Assembly (NCBI GenBank): GCA_900548135.1
Contig: URJC01000208.1
Location: 1 to 5,286, forward strand
Direction of reading: 5' to 3'
DNA length: 5,286 bases
Source: an uncultured Odoribacter sp.
Lineage (GTDB): Bacteria > Bacteroidota > Bacteroidia > Bacteroidales > Marinifilaceae
Shown here: piece by piece, positions 1 through 5,286 of the stretch
How positions within the stretch are numbered: the stretch's first letter is position 1
Layout: the number at the start of each line of letters is the position of its first letter
Notes under the pieces: generated by a model
What the model was told of the DNA's origin: nothing
The model's input: the letters and a program-made list of their open reading frames with translations, nothing else
Databases searched by the model: none
Position numbers and translations under genes: made by a program

Positions 1-552
1 ACCTACAAAGGTAAACTGCAGAGTTAGGTCCTTCGTTTCCGGACAGGTCAGTGAATACCTGCCATTGGCATCACTGGTAACACCCGCAGAAGTCCCCACA
101 ATCATTATCGTAACTCCGGGAAGTGGATTACCGGCCCTATCCGTTACCTGTCCCTCAACCTTGCGGGTCTGTACTTGTGGCAGCCCCGGCTTTCCCGCCT
201 TTACGACAATGATCTTGTCTTCAAACTGATAGATGAAATCCTTGCTCCTAAAAATTTGCTCCAAAACATTTTCTACGGTTTCAGCCTTCACTCGAATGGT
301 TACATCCCCAAAACTCTGACACTGCTCCTCATTGTAAACAAAAAAGAGACCTGTCTGCCTTTGGATTTCTTGAAACAAAGTTTGCAAAGTCGCCCGTTGA
401 AGATCCAGATTCACTTTTTCCTGCTGCGCAATCACCCGGGCCGATACGCTAAACGAAAAAAGAAAGGTAAAAATGACACATAGTCGCATTACACACCAGA
501 TTTTGCGTCTTTTATGCTCAAAAAATTTGAGCAAAAGCCAGATTTTTTTCAT
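1..552 (-). CDS. SusC/RagA-like TonB-dependent outer-membrane receptor with STN domain, N-terminal 184 residues (C-terminus off window)
   Basis: The minus frame is open from ATG 552 to the left edge without a stop. Residues 1-43 have a long basic n-region (KRRK) and a hydrophobic core (LCVIFTFLFSFSVSA), a signal peptide ending near the AQQ. Residues about 47-118 (from VNLDLQRATLQTLFQEI to DKIIVVK) match the STN domain that transmits signals to FecR-type anti-sigma factors. From about residue 132, VEGQVTDRAGNPLPGVTI and SDANGRYSL match the CarboxypepD_reg-like domain that precedes the plug in SusC receptors. Plug and barrel lie beyond the window. The family imports glycans or other large ligands with a SusD lipoprotein using TonB energy. 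It follows the sigma and anti-sigma genes, so it is the expected signalling receptor. Met22 (ATG 489-487) is a possible later start that still leaves a signal peptide. Ligand cannot be read from this part. Confidence 0.93.
   Translation of the reverse strand, partial: MKKIWLLLKFFEHKRRKIWCVMRLCVIFTFLFSFSVSARVIAQQEKVNLDLQRATLQTLFQEIQRQTGLFFVYNEEQCQSFGDVTIRVKAETVENVLEQIFRSKDFIYQFEDKIIVVKAGKPGLPQVQTRKVEGQVTDRAGNPLPGVTIMIVGTSAGVTSDANGRYSLTCPETKDLTLQFTFVG
515..533. repeat. Perfect 8-bp inverted repeat in the start of the susC-like gene
   Basis: TGCTCAAA (515-522), a spacer AAA (523-525) and TTTGAGCA (526-533) form a perfect dyad. It lies in codons 7-13 of the receptor gene and its right arm contains the TTTG proposed as the -33 element of the plus-strand promoter. 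It could be an operator, an early hairpin in the receptor mRNA, or chance in AT-rich DNA. No protein is known to me that binds it. Confidence 0.5.
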
Positions 553-559
553 AAATTTG
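526..559 (+). promoter_or_regulatory. Candidate Bacteroidales promoter for an antisense RNA
   Basis: TTTG (526-529) and TAAATTTG (552-559) match the Bacteroides -33 TTTG and -7 TAnnTTTG elements. The 22-nt spacer is somewhat longer than the 18 nt of the sigma gene promoter in this window. It points rightwards, against every protein gene, and the -7 element overlaps the receptor start codon. Transcription would begin near 564-566 and run across the receptor leader towards the end of the anti-sigma gene. Confidence 0.5.
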
Positions 560-580
560 TTCGTTATAGTTTATATTATG

Positions 581-651
581 AATAAGGCATTGGTGGAACA
601 ATGCGTTATTCGGATAATTCAGTACGGAAAGTGGTGGAACGCTTTCCGTAC
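581..651. repeat. Two tandem hairpins with an identical 9-nt loop and unrelated stems
   Basis: Hairpin 1 pairs 581-590 (AATAAGGCAT) with 601-610 (ATGCGTTATT), nine of ten pairs plus an outer G-C at 580/611, and has the loop TGGTGGAACA. Hairpin 2 pairs 622-631 (GTACGGAAAG) with 642-651 (CTTTCCGTAC), ten of ten, and has the loop TGGTGGAACG. Stem length and loop length are both 10 and 11 nt separate the units. The stems share no sequence, while nine loop positions are the same. This suggests that the loop is the functional part and the stems only present it. Confidence 0.8.
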
Positions 652-659
652 ATTTTTTT
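622..659 (+). terminator. Intrinsic terminator on the plus strand (end of the candidate antisense RNA)
   Basis: A perfect 10-bp stem (622-631 with 642-651) is followed one base later by T7 (653-659), the usual shape of a rho-independent terminator for plus-strand transcription. Read on the minus strand the same stem is preceded by A7 and not followed by a T run, so it would not end anti-sigma transcripts. No plus-strand protein gene needs a terminator here, which is part of the case for the antisense RNA. Confidence 0.6.
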
Positions 660-661
660 AA

Positions 662-1816
662 TTACATACTAATCATCAAAGTTTTGCCTTTTATATTAAA
701 ATTTATTCCCACACTTTGCGACAACGCCTTCAAAATGGTTTCAATCCGGTCATAACGTTTAATACATCCCGTAAAATGCAATTCCTGCAAACTCGGATTC
801 TGGTAAAATACATCCATATCATACCACAATGACAAAGTAGCCATAATCTGTTGCAAAGGTGCATTATTAAAAATAAGCAATCCCTTTGTCCAGGCATAAT
901 AAGGAGTTACATCTGTTTGCTGTACGTTCACTGTTCCGGTCCGTACATCAAAATCAGCCAACTGGGAATCGGTCAGTAAGAACTCTTCTGTACATCCTTT
1001 CACCGTAATCCCGATTTTCCCTTCTACAAGAGCCGTCTGGATCCGACGATCCAAATGACTATTAATATTAAAGGTAGTTCCGTAAACTTTTACTGTCATA
1101 TCTCCCACTTGTACCAGAAAAGGAACAGTATCCTTACTTACTCTGAAGTAAGCTTCTCCTGTTAACTCCACTTTCCGATGTTCTTTTCCAAAAACAACCG
1201 GATACTTCAAGGAAGAAGCCGAATTTAACCGTACAATAGTCCCATCCGATAAAGCAACCTCATATTCACCTCCCCGGGGAATTTTCAGTTCATTCAACTG
1301 CACCAATGTTGAGCTGTTTTCACTTTTATATATCAATCGTTCGTCTTTATTGACAATCTGACCTCTTTCTCCCAGATCCACAAGCAATGAATCCTGATAC
1401 TGTAATTTTACTTCCTGTCCGTTAGCAAGTATTAAAAACGCTTTTGCCTCTCCCGGCTTAATTTCATTTTCAACTGCAAATCCGGCAGGCTGTTCAGAGA
1501 TCATATAAGACCTGAAAAAAATCCCCCCGACACTCAGAAGTAAAACAACCACTGCAGCATAAACCGAATATCGTCTGAAAAAAATTTTCCGTCTATTTCC
1601 AGCAATTCTCCTGTCAAATTTTCGGATAGCTTTATCCAGATCTATCCTGTTACGCAACTCAAAACGCGAACGAAAAGAACGATCCAAGCAGATCTTCTTA
1701 AAAAAAAGACGGTTTGATTTACTCTTGCCAACCCATTCCATCAATTCTTTCTTCCGATCCTCCTGTATTCCGCCTCCCAAATATTCCAGTAATAATTCAA
1801 TTATTTCTGTATTCAT
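662..1816 (-). CDS. FecR-family anti-sigma factor (inner-membrane sigma regulator)
   Basis: This is a 384-residue protein of the usual Bacteroidales FecR layout. Residues 1-82 form a basic cytoplasmic part that should hold the sigma factor. Residues about 83-101 (YSVYAAVVVLLLSVGGIFF) are the single membrane segment. The periplasmic part has the FecR core at about 175-275, with IPRGGEYEVALSDGTIVRLNS, LTGEAYFRV and VYGTTFNI as typical stretches. A C-terminal DUF4974-like domain follows at about 310-384 (LIFNNAPLQQIMATLSLWY), related in fold to STN. It should bind the sigma factor encoded upstream and respond to the STN domain of the downstream receptor. It starts at ATG 1816, 264 nt after the sigma stop, which is longer than usual for this pair. 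The length is complete and no frame damage is seen. Confidence 0.95.
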   Translation of the reverse strand: MNTEIIELLLEYLGGGIQEDRKKELMEWVGKSKSNRLFFKKICLDRSFRSRFELRNRIDLDKAIRKFDRRIAGNRRKIFFRRYSVYAAVVVLLLSVGGIFFRSYMISEQPAGFAVENEIKPGEAKAFLILANGQEVKLQYQDSLLVDLGERGQIVNKDERLIYKSENSSTLVQLNELKIPRGGEYEVALSDGTIVRLNSASSLKYPVVFGKEHRKVELTGEAYFRVSKDTVPFLVQVGDMTVKVYGTTFNINSHLDRRIQTALVEGKIGITVKGCTEEFLLTDSQLADFDVRTGTVNVQQTDVTPYYAWTKGLLIFNNAPLQQIMATLSLWYDMDVFYQNPSLQELHFTGCIKRYDRIETILKALSQSVGINFNIKGKTLMISM

Positions 1817-2080: not shown

Positions 2081-2638
2081 TTATAAAATACCTACAAACC
2101 AATACATTCCTAAAACACCCAACTGTTCCCGAATATAACGCATAGCCCGTTTTTTCTGGGTTTTCACTGTCAGGAGAGTAATCTGAAGCAGATGAGCAAT
2201 TTCTTCGTTTCCTTTTCCCTCTAAATGAAGTAAAAAAACTTCCCGGCAACGGGGAGGCAATTCATCAATTACTTTAAAAAGACGCCGGTATAATTCTTCT
2301 TCAATCATTTCAAAATCATCCTCTGTATCCTCCTTATGGCAGATGGTATAATCTCTATATCTCTCTTCAATCTTCCTGTGCCTGATTCTATTTAAACAAG
2401 TATTCCGTACTGAACGATAAAGAAAAACACAAAAACTATTGTAAGAAAGAAACTTCTCTTTCTTTTCCCATACCGCAACAAAAAGCTCTTGTATAATATC
2501 CTCTGCTTCTTCCTGTTCCTCAATATATCGCATAGCAAATAACACCAGCGAACGATAGAACTCCTTAAAAAGCTCATGATAAGCCTCCTCGCGCTTTTCA
2601 TTAATCTGCTCTATAAATAAATCTTCTCTACTTTTCAT
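2081..2638 (-). CDS. ECF RNA polymerase sigma-70 factor (Bacteroidetes expansion family)
   Basis: This is a small two-domain ECF sigma factor. Counting from the upstream ATG at 2647, region 2 covers about residues 27-92, with the -10 recognition and core-binding stretch EEAEDIIQELFVAVWEK at 46-62 and FLYRSVRNTCLNRIRHRK at 75-92. Region 4 covers about 128-176, from ELPPRCREVF through the helix-turn-helix EEIAHLLQITLLTVKTQKKR. It ends in the hydrophobic tail common in this family. It should direct transcription of the receptor operon when released by the FecR-like protein. ATG 2638 is preferred because the promoter at 2659-2688 places the RNA start near 2654. ATG 2647 (adding Met-Cys-Asn) would leave a leader of only a few bases, but it remains possible, giving 188 residues in place of 185. 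Confidence 0.93.
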   Translation of the reverse strand: MKSREDLFIEQINEKREEAYHELFKEFYRSLVLFAMRYIEEQEEAEDIIQELFVAVWEKKEKFLSYNSFCVFLYRSVRNTCLNRIRHRKIEERYRDYTICHKEDTEDDFEMIEEELYRRLFKVIDELPPRCREVFLLHLEGKGNEEIAHLLQITLLTVKTQKKRAMRYIREQLGVLGMYWFVGIL

Positions 2639-2658
2639 ATTGCACATCCAGCATAAAA

Positions 2659-2764: not shown

Positions 2765-4228
2765 TCAATTATTCTTTTTTACCTTTTGGCGTTCTTTCTT
2801 TAATAAAGGCCAATTAGGATCGTAAACATGTTCAGTATTCAAAATCGTTAATAGTTCCTGTACTTTATCAGGACGTTCAGCAGCCAAGTCATGTACTTCT
2901 GAAGGATCTGCTGCTAAATTATACAATTCTGTCTTTATTTTATTTTCGTCTTTTGAAACATTCAGGCGTATCAATTTCCAGTCCCCTTTACGTAATGCCT
3001 GACGTCCTCCCCCTTCGTGGAATTCAAAATAAAAATGATCCTGCTTTTTTTGTTTACCTTTTCCAGTCAACAAAGGCATCAGGCTAATGCCATCAATATG
3101 ATTCTTTATTTTTACTCCTGTTAATTGAGCAAATGTCGGCAACATATCCCAAAACGAACACATAAAATCAGTCTTTCCCTGCCGGATAACATCAGGCCAT
3201 GCAACGATAAACGGCACCCGGATACCTCCTTCATATACATCCCGTTTATAACCACGGAAAATGCCATTGCTATTAAAGAAATCAGGATCGGCACCACCTT
3301 CTTTATGAGGTCCGTTATCACTACAAAATACAACGATAGTATTTTCATACAATCCCAATTCTTTCAGTTTCTCCACCACCTGACCGACATACACATCCAA
3401 ACGGTAAATCATTGCTGCAAATGTAGCATGCGGTTCCTTTTGGGAACAGTATCCACCATTACGGAACATCGGTCCAGCATCACATCCTTTAAAAGGTTTT
3501 TCCGGATATTTACCCCTAAATTTCTGTATAATACTATCTTCAGGAACAATTAATTCTGCATGTGGAAGTACATAAGGTAAAAACAAAAAGAAGGATTTAT
3601 CCTGATTTTCGTCCAGAAATTGTAAAGCCCTTTCATGAATCAAATCCTGAGTATATGACCCAAAGCCACCATTATAATTACCAGTCAGTTCCACACGTTT
3701 CCCATTATCCCACAAATGATCAGCATAATAATTATGCGCCTGTAATTGCCCATTATATCCAAAAAAATCATCTACGCCCTGCTTATTAGGATCTCCTTCG
3801 GCATCCGGCGCTCCCAGACCCCATTTTCCAAAACATCCGGTAGTATATCCCGCATTTTTAAATACCTGAAAAATACTATTGATTCCTGCAGGTAAAGACA
3901 TATCTCCTTCCGGTTTCACTCCTTTATTGCCCCGGATCGGAGAATGTCCGGTATGTAACCCAGTCATTAAACTGGCACGTGAAGGAGCGCTCACTGTCGT
4001 TCCAGAGTAACATTGTGTAAACCGCATTCCTTCCAAAGCCAAACGGTCAATATTGGGAGTCTGGAATTTTTCCTGTCCATAACAACTCAAGTCTCCATAC
4101 CCCAAGTCATCAGCAATAATAAAAACCACATTCGGAGCTTTCTTTTCTTTGACAAACGGTGCAGCACTTAAGGCTTGTCCTGCATTGAACCCAGCTAATA
4201 TACCGGTTAATAACAAAGTTTGATTCAT
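2765..4228 (-). CDS. Secreted S1-family (arylsulfatase-type) sulfatase, serine-type
   Basis: A complete 487-residue sulfatase that hydrolyses sulfate esters, probably on host glycans, in the periplasm or at the surface. Residues 1-22 look like a signal peptide with no lipobox cysteine; its n-region (MNQT) lacks a basic residue. Metal ligands are visible: D40-D41 in FIIADDLGYGD, and D304-N305 in FCSDNGPH. The active-site motif S80-A-P-S-R84-ASLMTG carries Ser at the formylglycine position, so maturation needs an anaerobic sulfatase-maturating radical SAM enzyme. Other expected catalytic residues are K135 (GKWGLG), H223 (LPHAE), H308 and K328. The C-terminal subdomain ends with the common ELYNLAADPSEVHDLA stretch. 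It follows the M60 peptidase by 85 nt and is followed by a terminator, so it is the last gene of its unit. The S1 subfamily and the sulfate position cannot be set by eye. Confidence 0.95.
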   Translation of the reverse strand: MNQTLLLTGILAGFNAGQALSAAPFVKEKKAPNVVFIIADDLGYGDLSCYGQEKFQTPNIDRLALEGMRFTQCYSGTTVSAPSRASLMTGLHTGHSPIRGNKGVKPEGDMSLPAGINSIFQVFKNAGYTTGCFGKWGLGAPDAEGDPNKQGVDDFFGYNGQLQAHNYYADHLWDNGKRVELTGNYNGGFGSYTQDLIHERALQFLDENQDKSFFLFLPYVLPHAELIVPEDSIIQKFRGKYPEKPFKGCDAGPMFRNGGYCSQKEPHATFAAMIYRLDVYVGQVVEKLKELGLYENTIVVFCSDNGPHKEGGADPDFFNSNGIFRGYKRDVYEGGIRVPFIVAWPDVIRQGKTDFMCSFWDMLPTFAQLTGVKIKNHIDGISLMPLLTGKGKQKKQDHFYFEFHEGGGRQALRKGDWKLIRLNVSKDENKIKTELYNLAADPSEVHDLAAERPDKVQELLTILNTEHVYDPNWPLLKKERQKVKKNN

Positions 4229-4313: not shown

Positions 4314-5286
4314 TTACCTGGTTCCGTAAACCAATGTACGTGTACCATCCCAGCCTACCGCTTCAATCCGGGTAGAACCGTCCGGATAAGCTACGGTAGT
4401 AGCAGATTTATCGGCATAATTCGTAAACGGTAACGTAGCTTTTACCAATTCATTTCCGGCATATGTCTCAAACACTACAACATTTTTCCAGACAGAAGCG
4501 GTCACTAACCGGGAGGAACCGCTACCAGAAACTCCCTTACCGGTTGTCCCCACGACTGCTGCTTTATTCTTGAAAGCATCCACACTATTTCCGGAGATAT
4601 AATAAATCACCGGAGAAACTGGTTGCGGATAATTCATTGCATTAATTTCTGCCTTAAATTCATCCACTTCTTCTTGGGTAATGATCAAATGTATAGCTCC
4701 CCCATAATCTGATACCTCATGGTCATAAGGTTTCAACATTCCGCACTTTTCAAAGAAATCCAGCATATTTACATTCATCACCTTGCAGGTATTCCGCATA
4801 AAATTAAACTGCAATTCTTTATTACTTAAACCGGTTTCATCTGTTCTGCGAATAATCTCTATCAATTGCGGATAAAAATCTTCTACACCCAAACCGGCAA
4901 TCTTATTAAACAGCTGCAATTGCCAAAATGGACACAACCGAACAAATAAATCACCTGCTCCTGTTTCCGGATTCGGATTATTCTGTCCTTTTTGGAACAA
5001 CCAGTTCTGTCCTCCGATAATACCATTATTAAAGTAACAATTAAACCGGTTTCCAACCATAGAAGCCCCGCCTTCCCCATCACCGATCTTCTCCTGTTCC
5101 AAACGCAGGTTATCAGGCGTATAATGATACTGAACTGTAGCGGAGTAAATATTATTAGTCACTTCTGTCGTGCCCTGCCATTTCAATCCCGGTCGTACCT
5201 GATTGACATGCCCGAACTCATGTCCGATTTCCCAACTATTCGCACGAATATTTTCTGGTATGACATTTAAAGACGGGAAAGAAACT
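4314..5286 (-). CDS. M60-family (enhancin-like) zinc metallopeptidase, C-terminal 323 residues (N-terminus off window)
   Basis: The minus frame stays open from the TAA at 4314-4316 to the right edge, so the gene continues beyond it; a start near TTG 5186 would be an artefact that removes the active site. Upstream of that point the frame reads EIGHEFGHVNQ, a HExxH zinc site (5208-5222) with two His ligands and the catalytic Glu. The third ligand is probably the Glu in GTTEVTNN (codon 5163-5165). This arrangement is that of Peptidase_M60 (PF13402), whose gut members cleave mucins and other O-glycosylated proteins. The rest of the catalytic domain follows (FFEKCGMLKPYD, ITQEEVDEFKAEI), then from about 4600 down a Ser/Gly-rich stretch and a beta-rich C-terminal part ending TRIEAVGWDGTRTLVYGTR. 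Exact substrate and any N-terminal carbohydrate-binding domains are outside the window. Confidence 0.92.
   Translation of the reverse strand, partial: VSFPSLNVIPENIRANSWEIGHEFGHVNQVRPGLKWQGTTEVTNNIYSATVQYHYTPDNLRLEQEKIGDGEGGASMVGNRFNCYFNNGIIGGQNWLFQKGQNNPNPETGAGDLFVRLCPFWQLQLFNKIAGLGVEDFYPQLIEIIRRTDETGLSNKELQFNFMRNTCKVMNVNMLDFFEKCGMLKPYDHEVSDYGGAIHLIITQEEVDEFKAEINAMNYPQPVSPVIYYISGNSVDAFKNKAAVVGTTGKGVSGSGSSRLVTASVWKNVVVFETYAGNELVKATLPFTNYADKSATTVAYPDGSTRIEAVGWDGTRTLVYGTR

Follow-up and report, generated by a model that had tools for sequence, protein, structure and literature searches.

A predicted DonS-type antisense RNA with matching hairpin tips opposite a susC-like gene

The gap between a FecR anti-sigma factor gene and a susC-like gene was analysed in a stretch of DNA of 5,286 nt (the window; all coordinates below are window positions) and in its relatives. 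A conserved −7 box, two covarying hairpins that carry the same tip and a run of T residues make it likely that the gap encodes a DonS-type antisense RNA (~94 nt), whose pairing with the susC leader would repress the gene, a reading that is given a probability of about two in three. Its support is drawn from sequence and consists of the box, the hairpins, their covariation, a strand bias, the twin tips and joint changes in those tips. An earlier note on this DNA had predicted a DonS-type antisense RNA in this gap, and the prediction gained ground, as box, hairpins and T run are kept in homologues that retain FecR and SusC. The twin tips are an observation beyond that note.

The locus and its relatives

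All annotated genes of the window, encoding a sigma factor, FecR, SusC, a sulfatase and an M60 peptidase, lie on the minus strand. The features used below are the following.

1-552, minus strand: 5′ part of a SusC/RagA-family transporter gene (PF07660, PF13715), the presumed target
526-529, plus strand: TTTG, the proposed −33 element, unconserved, with a 22-nt spacer to the box
552-559, plus strand: promoter-like −7 box TAAATTTG, overlapping the susC ATG (complement of 550-552)
553-661, minus strand: FecR-susC gap of 109 bases, the presumed susC leader
566-659, plus strand: predicted antisense RNA of ~94 nt, its 5′ end placed from the box to within ~3 nt on either side
566-579, plus strand: AU-rich 5′ tail of the predicted RNA, with ATTAA- and GTTAA-type words enriched in 96 loci
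580-611, plus strand: hairpin 1 (loop 593-598), from folding and covariation
591-599, plus strand: twin tip, copy 1, TGGTGGAAC, in hairpin 1
622-651, plus strand: hairpin 2, terminator-like (loop 634-639), from folding; helix 2 is paired in 84.5% of cells
632-640, plus strand: twin tip, copy 2, TGGTGGAAC, in hairpin 2
653-659, plus strand: run of seven T residues, ending just before the FecR stop codon (662-664)
662-1816, minus strand: FecR anti-sigma factor (PF04773, PF16344)
2081-2647, minus strand: ECF sigma factor (PF04542, PF08281; TIGR02985 above cut-off)
2765-4228, minus strand: sulfatase (PF00884), upstream of the sigma gene
4314-5285, minus strand: M60 peptidase (PF13402), upstream of the sigma gene

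The SusC fragment scored below the cut-off of TIGR04056. The sulfatase and M60 peptidase beside the sigma gene suggest a mucin or host-glycan locus. Searching the window against Rfam gave two chance-level matches only (E 3.8 and 5), no similarity of the window to plasmid DNA was found, and no viral contigs carrying the SusC N terminus were found. A generic sigma-70 promoter scan of the window was set aside as unsuited to the phylum.

Relatives were collected through FecR, for which the named relatives among the matches listed came from Odoribacter, Butyricimonas and Sanguibacteroides. Of the 120 FecR proteins listed, 25 were aligned as a query, which gave 277 relatives from named genomes; the best 80 loci (L001-L080) were kept, from Odoribacter, Butyricimonas, marine genera (such as Marinifilum, Labilibaculum and Ancylomarina), Prevotella, Paraprevotella, Pedobacter and others; two loci that had no next ORF were dropped. 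Three genomes were searched for FecR_C, with 146 matches in G002 (Butyricimonas, the genome of L042), 64 in G003 (an Odoribacter MAG, the genome of L001) and 28 in G001 (the genome of L067). FecR-susC junctions were then read from G002 (80 read, 79 parsed, L111-L190), from G003 (40 read) and from the family of G001, labelled Bacteroidaceae here (40 read, 39 parsed). Rows for G001 and its genus relatives were partly parsed, some of them wrongly oriented, and left uncounted; those that were readable had short gaps with no box. The main set was restricted to gaps of 40-130 nt, other lengths being excluded, and held 131 gaps, 121 of them unique, with the window included. Two of the loci from G002, L151 and L180, repeat L009 and L029 and were retained; neither has twin tips of at least 7 nt.

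A promoter-like box at the susC start codon

Taken together with the CAT at 550-552, the box reads CATAAATTTG at 550-559 of the plus strand. The earlier note placed the promoter across the receptor start codon, and this was borne out, in that TAAATTTG and the CAT at 550-552 overlap the susC ATG. By chance, CATANNTTTG is expected 0.32 times per window, so its occurrence in a single sequence proves little and it is the positional evidence that counts. CATAnnTTTG was present exactly at the susC start in 96 of the 121 unique gaps of 40-130 nt. Among loci L001-L080, the box was present at 38 of 65 susC starts beside FecR versus 3 of 488 other ORF starts (Fisher p = 1.5e-37), a comparison in which a boxed ATG was not favoured. 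In the count over the 121 gaps, five loci (L001, L003, L009, L019 and L029) were scored as unboxed partly because the susC start had been called too far upstream or inside the gene.

The same position was occupied in the sets read later, in which the picking of the susC start favoured a boxed ATG. In G002 the box was found at 65 of 79 junctions and, with that favouring removed by always taking the first open ATG, at 59 of 79; among the other open ATGs it stood at 1 of 195. G003 gave 23 boxed gaps among 28 of 40-130 nt, five of the 28 being repeats of earlier loci (four gaps and L285, which is the L001 locus), and one box among its 12 remaining junctions. In Bacteroidaceae, 14 of the 22 gaps of at least 70 nt were boxed and none of the 17 shorter ones; gaps that leave no room for the RNA thus have no box, which speaks against a signal for susC translation. 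Being fused to the susC start codon, the box offers a simple sequence rule for finding such RNAs.

The sigma-ABfr promoter has −33 TTTG followed by −7 TAnnTTTG. The −7 element TAnnTTTG was found in the window and in the boxed loci. The earlier note had also included the TTTG, at a 22-nt spacer, in its promoter match. That TTTG is indeed present in the window, but it is unconserved, since among the 96 boxed loci a TTTG occurred once at spacer 22 (the window's own) and never at 19-21; it is a chance match or an optional element. In Flavobacterium johnsoniae, too, the −33 motif was not found (PMC7366714). From the position of the −7 box, the predicted RNA would start ~11-15 nt upstream of the susC ATG and would therefore face the leader, not the start codon.

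The start of the sense transcript bears on how much of that leader the RNA would meet, and the earlier wording of full complementarity to the leader presupposes where susC transcription begins. Of the 22 Bacteroidaceae gaps of 90-330 nt, 13 contained a sense GCCTATG-like word (CATAGGC-like on the other strand), which in 12 cases lay 6-50 nt past the FecR stop (e.g. L244, L252, L257, L266 and L274); the word was present in 1 of 121 Odoribacteraceae-type gaps. In Bacteroidaceae it is a candidate part of an ECF promoter, and if it belongs to a sigma-driven promoter the leader of susC in that family would extend over the full length of the RNA. Were susC in the window's family to start downstream of hairpin 1, the sigma-driven message would be without the loops. 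An ECF promoter inside the terminator palindrome was considered and set aside, the stem sequence looking unshared by eye in the wider set.

Hairpins, putative terminator and twin tips

Folding of the RNA 560-660 gave −37.0 kcal/mol (z = −8.2; 0/200 shuffles as good), and a slightly different stretch with a second shuffler gave z = −6.8 for the predicted RNA. The minus strand of 535-665 folded at −27.1 (z −5.1). The two hairpins (580-611 and 622-651) and the terminator-like run of seven T residues (653-659) were recovered opposite all genes, as the earlier note described them, to give an RNA predicted at ~94 nt; the hairpin at 622-651 has the longest stem among six terminator-like matches in the window. 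Of the 121 gaps, 105 had a terminator-type hairpin on the antisense strand compared with 33 on the sense strand, the numbers in G003 being 22 and 5 of 28, and box and terminator co-occurred (p = 8e-4, 121 gaps). Over 117 gaps the mean fold z was −4.1 for antisense and −3.0 for sense, the antisense value being the lower in 84; folding thus beat shuffles on both strands, and more so on the antisense strand. As folding of the sense strand is the weaker, the leader loops may not form as drawn. A strand comparison of pre-selected hairpins was biased by that selection and was excluded.

Covariation was assessed on an alignment of 17 hand-picked RNAs with a structure named by the author. Both sides had changed in 19 of 24 pairs, and the covariation score was 0.406 compared with 0.185 after shuffling (0/500 as high), falling to 0.11-0.18 when the partner was slid by 1 to 3 columns. 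In the helix of hairpin 1 all 12 counted pairs covaried. RNAalifold, unaided, returned a consensus of hairpin 2 only, with 7 pairs. The covariance that had been suggested as a check in the same gap of relatives is thus present in both stems. Loss of promoter and T run from close homologues had been named as grounds for rejecting the RNA; L001 and L002, the nearest relatives among the loci obtained, keep the box and both hairpins, and the T run of L001 is broken.

Two further observations concern the body of the predicted RNA. In the 5′ tail (equivalent to window 566-579), ATTAA was present in 48 of 96 boxed loci compared with 15.8 after shuffling, and the enriched tail words are possibly a second contact or a protein site. 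A 27-codon ATG ORF crosses the predicted RNA on the plus strand (578-661). A type I toxin-antitoxin or small-protein gene was considered and rejected, as ATG ORFs of at least 20 amino acids were present in 12 of 96 RNAs compared with 14.6 ± 3.3 in shuffled ones, that is, with no excess.

The tips of the two window hairpins are one 9-mer present twice, 41 nt apart, and such a pair was found in 0/200 shuffles of the window. Twin tips were scored as the longest substring common to loop 1 and loop 2 (each loop with its two closing pairs), with loops re-dealt among loci as the null. Twins of at least 7 nt were present in 24 of 89 two-hairpin loci compared with 1.0 expected (0/2000 as high). For the first 45 loci, a common string of at least 5 nt was found in 19 versus 4.0 ± 1.8 (0/3000) and, with near-duplicates removed, in 14 of 36 versus 3.0 ± 1.6 (0/3000). 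Note that the twin tips were first spotted by eye in part of these loci, so that the 45-locus test is not independent, while the loci of G002 and G003 are. Among the later-fetched loci of G002, twins of at least 7 nt were found in 8 of 44 versus 0.3 expected (0/2000). In G003 they were found in 2 of 16 versus 0.12 expected (10/2000 shuffles as high), one of the two being the L001 locus again, which leaves 1 of 15 new loci; at the lower threshold of at least 5 nt, G003 was not above shuffles (503/2000). Reverse-complement matches of at least 6 nt between the tips were found in 0 of 89 loci versus 0.75 expected. The boxed Bacteroidaceae RNAs had no twins, their best common substring being 5 nt at one locus. 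Twin tips are real, but they are a feature of about one in four two-hairpin loci in this lineage.

The word that is repeated differs from locus to locus, the 24 twin loci holding 20 different exact strings of 7-13 nt, some of them nested, and identity two to eight bases outside the twins was 15-38%. In two related pairs both tips are altered alike: L021 has GTTCCAGC twice and L032 has GTTCCCGC twice, with FecR 69% identical, and the window has GGTGGAAC twice and L001 has GGTGGTAC twice, with FecR 54% identical. L002, whose FecR is 53% identical to that of the window, has TTCCCG twice. Against this, the related loci L022/L058, L036/L043 and L008/L013 have tip 2 in common but not tip 1. Twins are separated by 28 to 51 nt with no helical phase, and some tips lie in the opposite orientation. 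Joint change of the tips singles out the bases at which contact probably begins.

Other copies of the words were also counted. Twin words of at least 8 nt had one extra copy outside the gap in the stretches around 9 loci, compared with about 0.9 expected; near all 16 loci tested, twin words had 19 copies versus 9.1 expected, 15 of which were the AT-rich TTTGCAG in four marine loci. When 54 terminator loops of G002 were compared with one another, 9 of 1431 pairs shared at least 7 nt, more than the 2.8 ± 1.7 found after column shuffling, and no repulsion between tips was seen within this genome; its loop words appear to be mostly private, yet not actively kept apart. In two pairs of related loci the terminator loops are exact reverse complements, namely GTCCCCAC/GTGGGGAC in L040/L066 (FecR 68% identical) and GCTCCAAC/GTTGGAGC in L057/L061 (FecR 58% identical). 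Hairpin 2 of these loci looks as if its tip had been flipped inside the stem.

In a plain cis-antisense pair every loop is complementary to its own counterpart by default, and there would be no reason for loop 1 to stay like loop 2. The locus-specific matched words suggest a partner that sees both tips. A DNA-binding partner appears less likely, given the spacing of the twins and an equal sigma region-4 core at loci with different tips, and the opposite RNA would be the simplest partner that remains. One reading of these data is that the twin tips are a duplicated, locus-specific kissing seed, in which the common word is probably a private address for the RNA's own target among dozens of similar loci.

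Proposed action, alternatives and known systems

The proposed action of the RNA is as follows. As long as induction of the sigma/anti-sigma pair is not strong, the RNA would be made by housekeeping RNA polymerase starting at the −7 box, and a kissing contact would form between one of the two identical loops of the RNA and a complementary loop of the susC leader. From there pairing would extend towards the AU-rich stretch that directly precedes the start codon, blocking translation or exposing the message to cleavage. With a word that is mostly peculiar to its locus, the loop would serve as a private address in genomes with dozens of loci; since the two tips are identical, each hairpin of the antisense RNA could dock on either hairpin of the leader, and such cross-docking would keep the tips alike. 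It is tentatively proposed, at somewhat less than even odds, that Odoribacteraceae and their marine relatives use a private-address antisense code across dozens of susC loci per genome and that in many of these selection through cross-docking on the leader loops keeps the twin tips identical, so that look-alike RNAs tell their targets apart. The twin tips also hint at the means by which antisense RNAs could be kept distinct in a genome that has 146 FecR_C matches. The two layers of control that the earlier note envisaged, sigma/anti-sigma induction and antisense repression, are plausible at this locus.

An unlikely alternative is a clash of promoters, in which polymerases that start at the −7 box would collide with or occlude transcription of susC and so keep it low, with no part played by the RNA as such. 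The box does overlap the susC start codon in most loci, and transcription from it would meet the susC leader head-on; however, a clash alone leaves the covarying stems and the twin tips unexplained. It could also be that the tips act as DNA, as direct repeats recognised by the cognate sigma factor or by some other regulator specific to the locus, with the hairpins incidental. A gene under sigma control lies downstream of the repeats, the distance of hairpin 1 from the ATG varies rather little, and many tips hold an NNAAC word, which resembles ECF −35 elements. The chance of this is nevertheless judged slight, because the twins are spaced by 28 to 51 nt without helical phase, some tips are reversed, the stems that bear the tips covary, and ITLLTVKTQKK, the core of sigma region 4, is shared by the window, L001 and L002 (few loci were compared) while the L002 tip differs. 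On spacing, orientation and the equal sigma helix core with different tips, reading the tips as a sigma −35 element was set aside.

That the RNA acts mainly in trans, with the two equal loops as a double seed for a distant message, is quite improbable. Doubled loops would suit a seed for a third partner, and parts of PMC11697453 describe the FopS RNAs of B. thetaiotaomicron as repressing susC messages in trans through a seed. Here the RNA keeps its place opposite susC, and twin words of at least 8 nt had a single copy in the stretches around 9 loci against about 0.9 expected. We give hardly any credence to the remaining explanation, in which the promoter at the box would be spurious or a product of chance and the hairpins would work in the sense transcript, e.g. 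by attenuating it or by ending the sigma-FecR message. According to passages of PMC7366714, Bacteroides commonly has antisense starts, which are often regarded as spurious. The sense strand does fold better than shuffles (mean z −3.0) and carries a terminator-type hairpin in 33 of 121 gaps. Against it stand the position of the box, the antisense bias of the terminators (105 versus 33 of 121; in G003, 22 versus 5 of 28) and the joint presence of box and terminator.

DonS is described in parts of PMC7366714 as a family of RNAs of 78-128 nt opposite susC, at PULs for mucosa-derived glycans. DonS lowers susC expression in B. fragilis (PMC7366714), by a mechanism that is called unknown in a passage of PMC11697453. 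In B. thetaiotaomicron ten DonS-type RNAs were annotated, and later 32, in the accounts excerpted from PMC7366714, PMC10994844 and PMC11697453. Extracts of PMC10994844 report both negative and positive correlations of PUL antisense RNAs with their own PUL, the positive ones speaking against the repression proposed here, and state the need for functional work on the class. As the twin tips change together and thereby name likely contact bases, the DonS mechanism becomes testable by changes of a few bases.

Like DonS, the window RNA lies opposite a susC homologue, on the plus strand between FecR and susC; with ~94 nt between its predicted ends it falls within the 78-128 nt of the family, and it has a predicted housekeeping −7 box. 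It fits the DonS type by place and predicted size and would be a variant within the DonS-type antisense RNAs. Unlike DonS-type RNAs it fills the whole gap of ~100 nt, with its T run ending beside the FecR stop codon. No report of twin tips or of a box fused to a start codon was found among the open-licence papers searched. The window RNA also resembles FopS and GibS of B. thetaiotaomicron in belonging to a multi-copy family predicted or shown to repress susC-type messages, as outlined in parts of PMC11697453. FopS, as far as its description there goes, acts in trans through a common 5′ seed, whereas here the tips are mostly locus-specific and each RNA faces its own susC.

The Bacteroidaceae loci have the same layout as the window in longer gaps; unlike them, about a quarter of the two-hairpin loci of the window's lineage have the same tip twice. 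Plasmid kissing-loop antisense RNAs make their first contact through loops, and the loops within one molecule are generally unlike; RNAIII of S. aureus reuses one constant C-rich loop word in several hairpins. The loop-first contact proposed here is like that of the plasmid RNAs and RNAIII, and RNAIII likewise repeats a loop word. Unlike in either, the pair of tips in the present RNAs varies between loci and matches within a locus.
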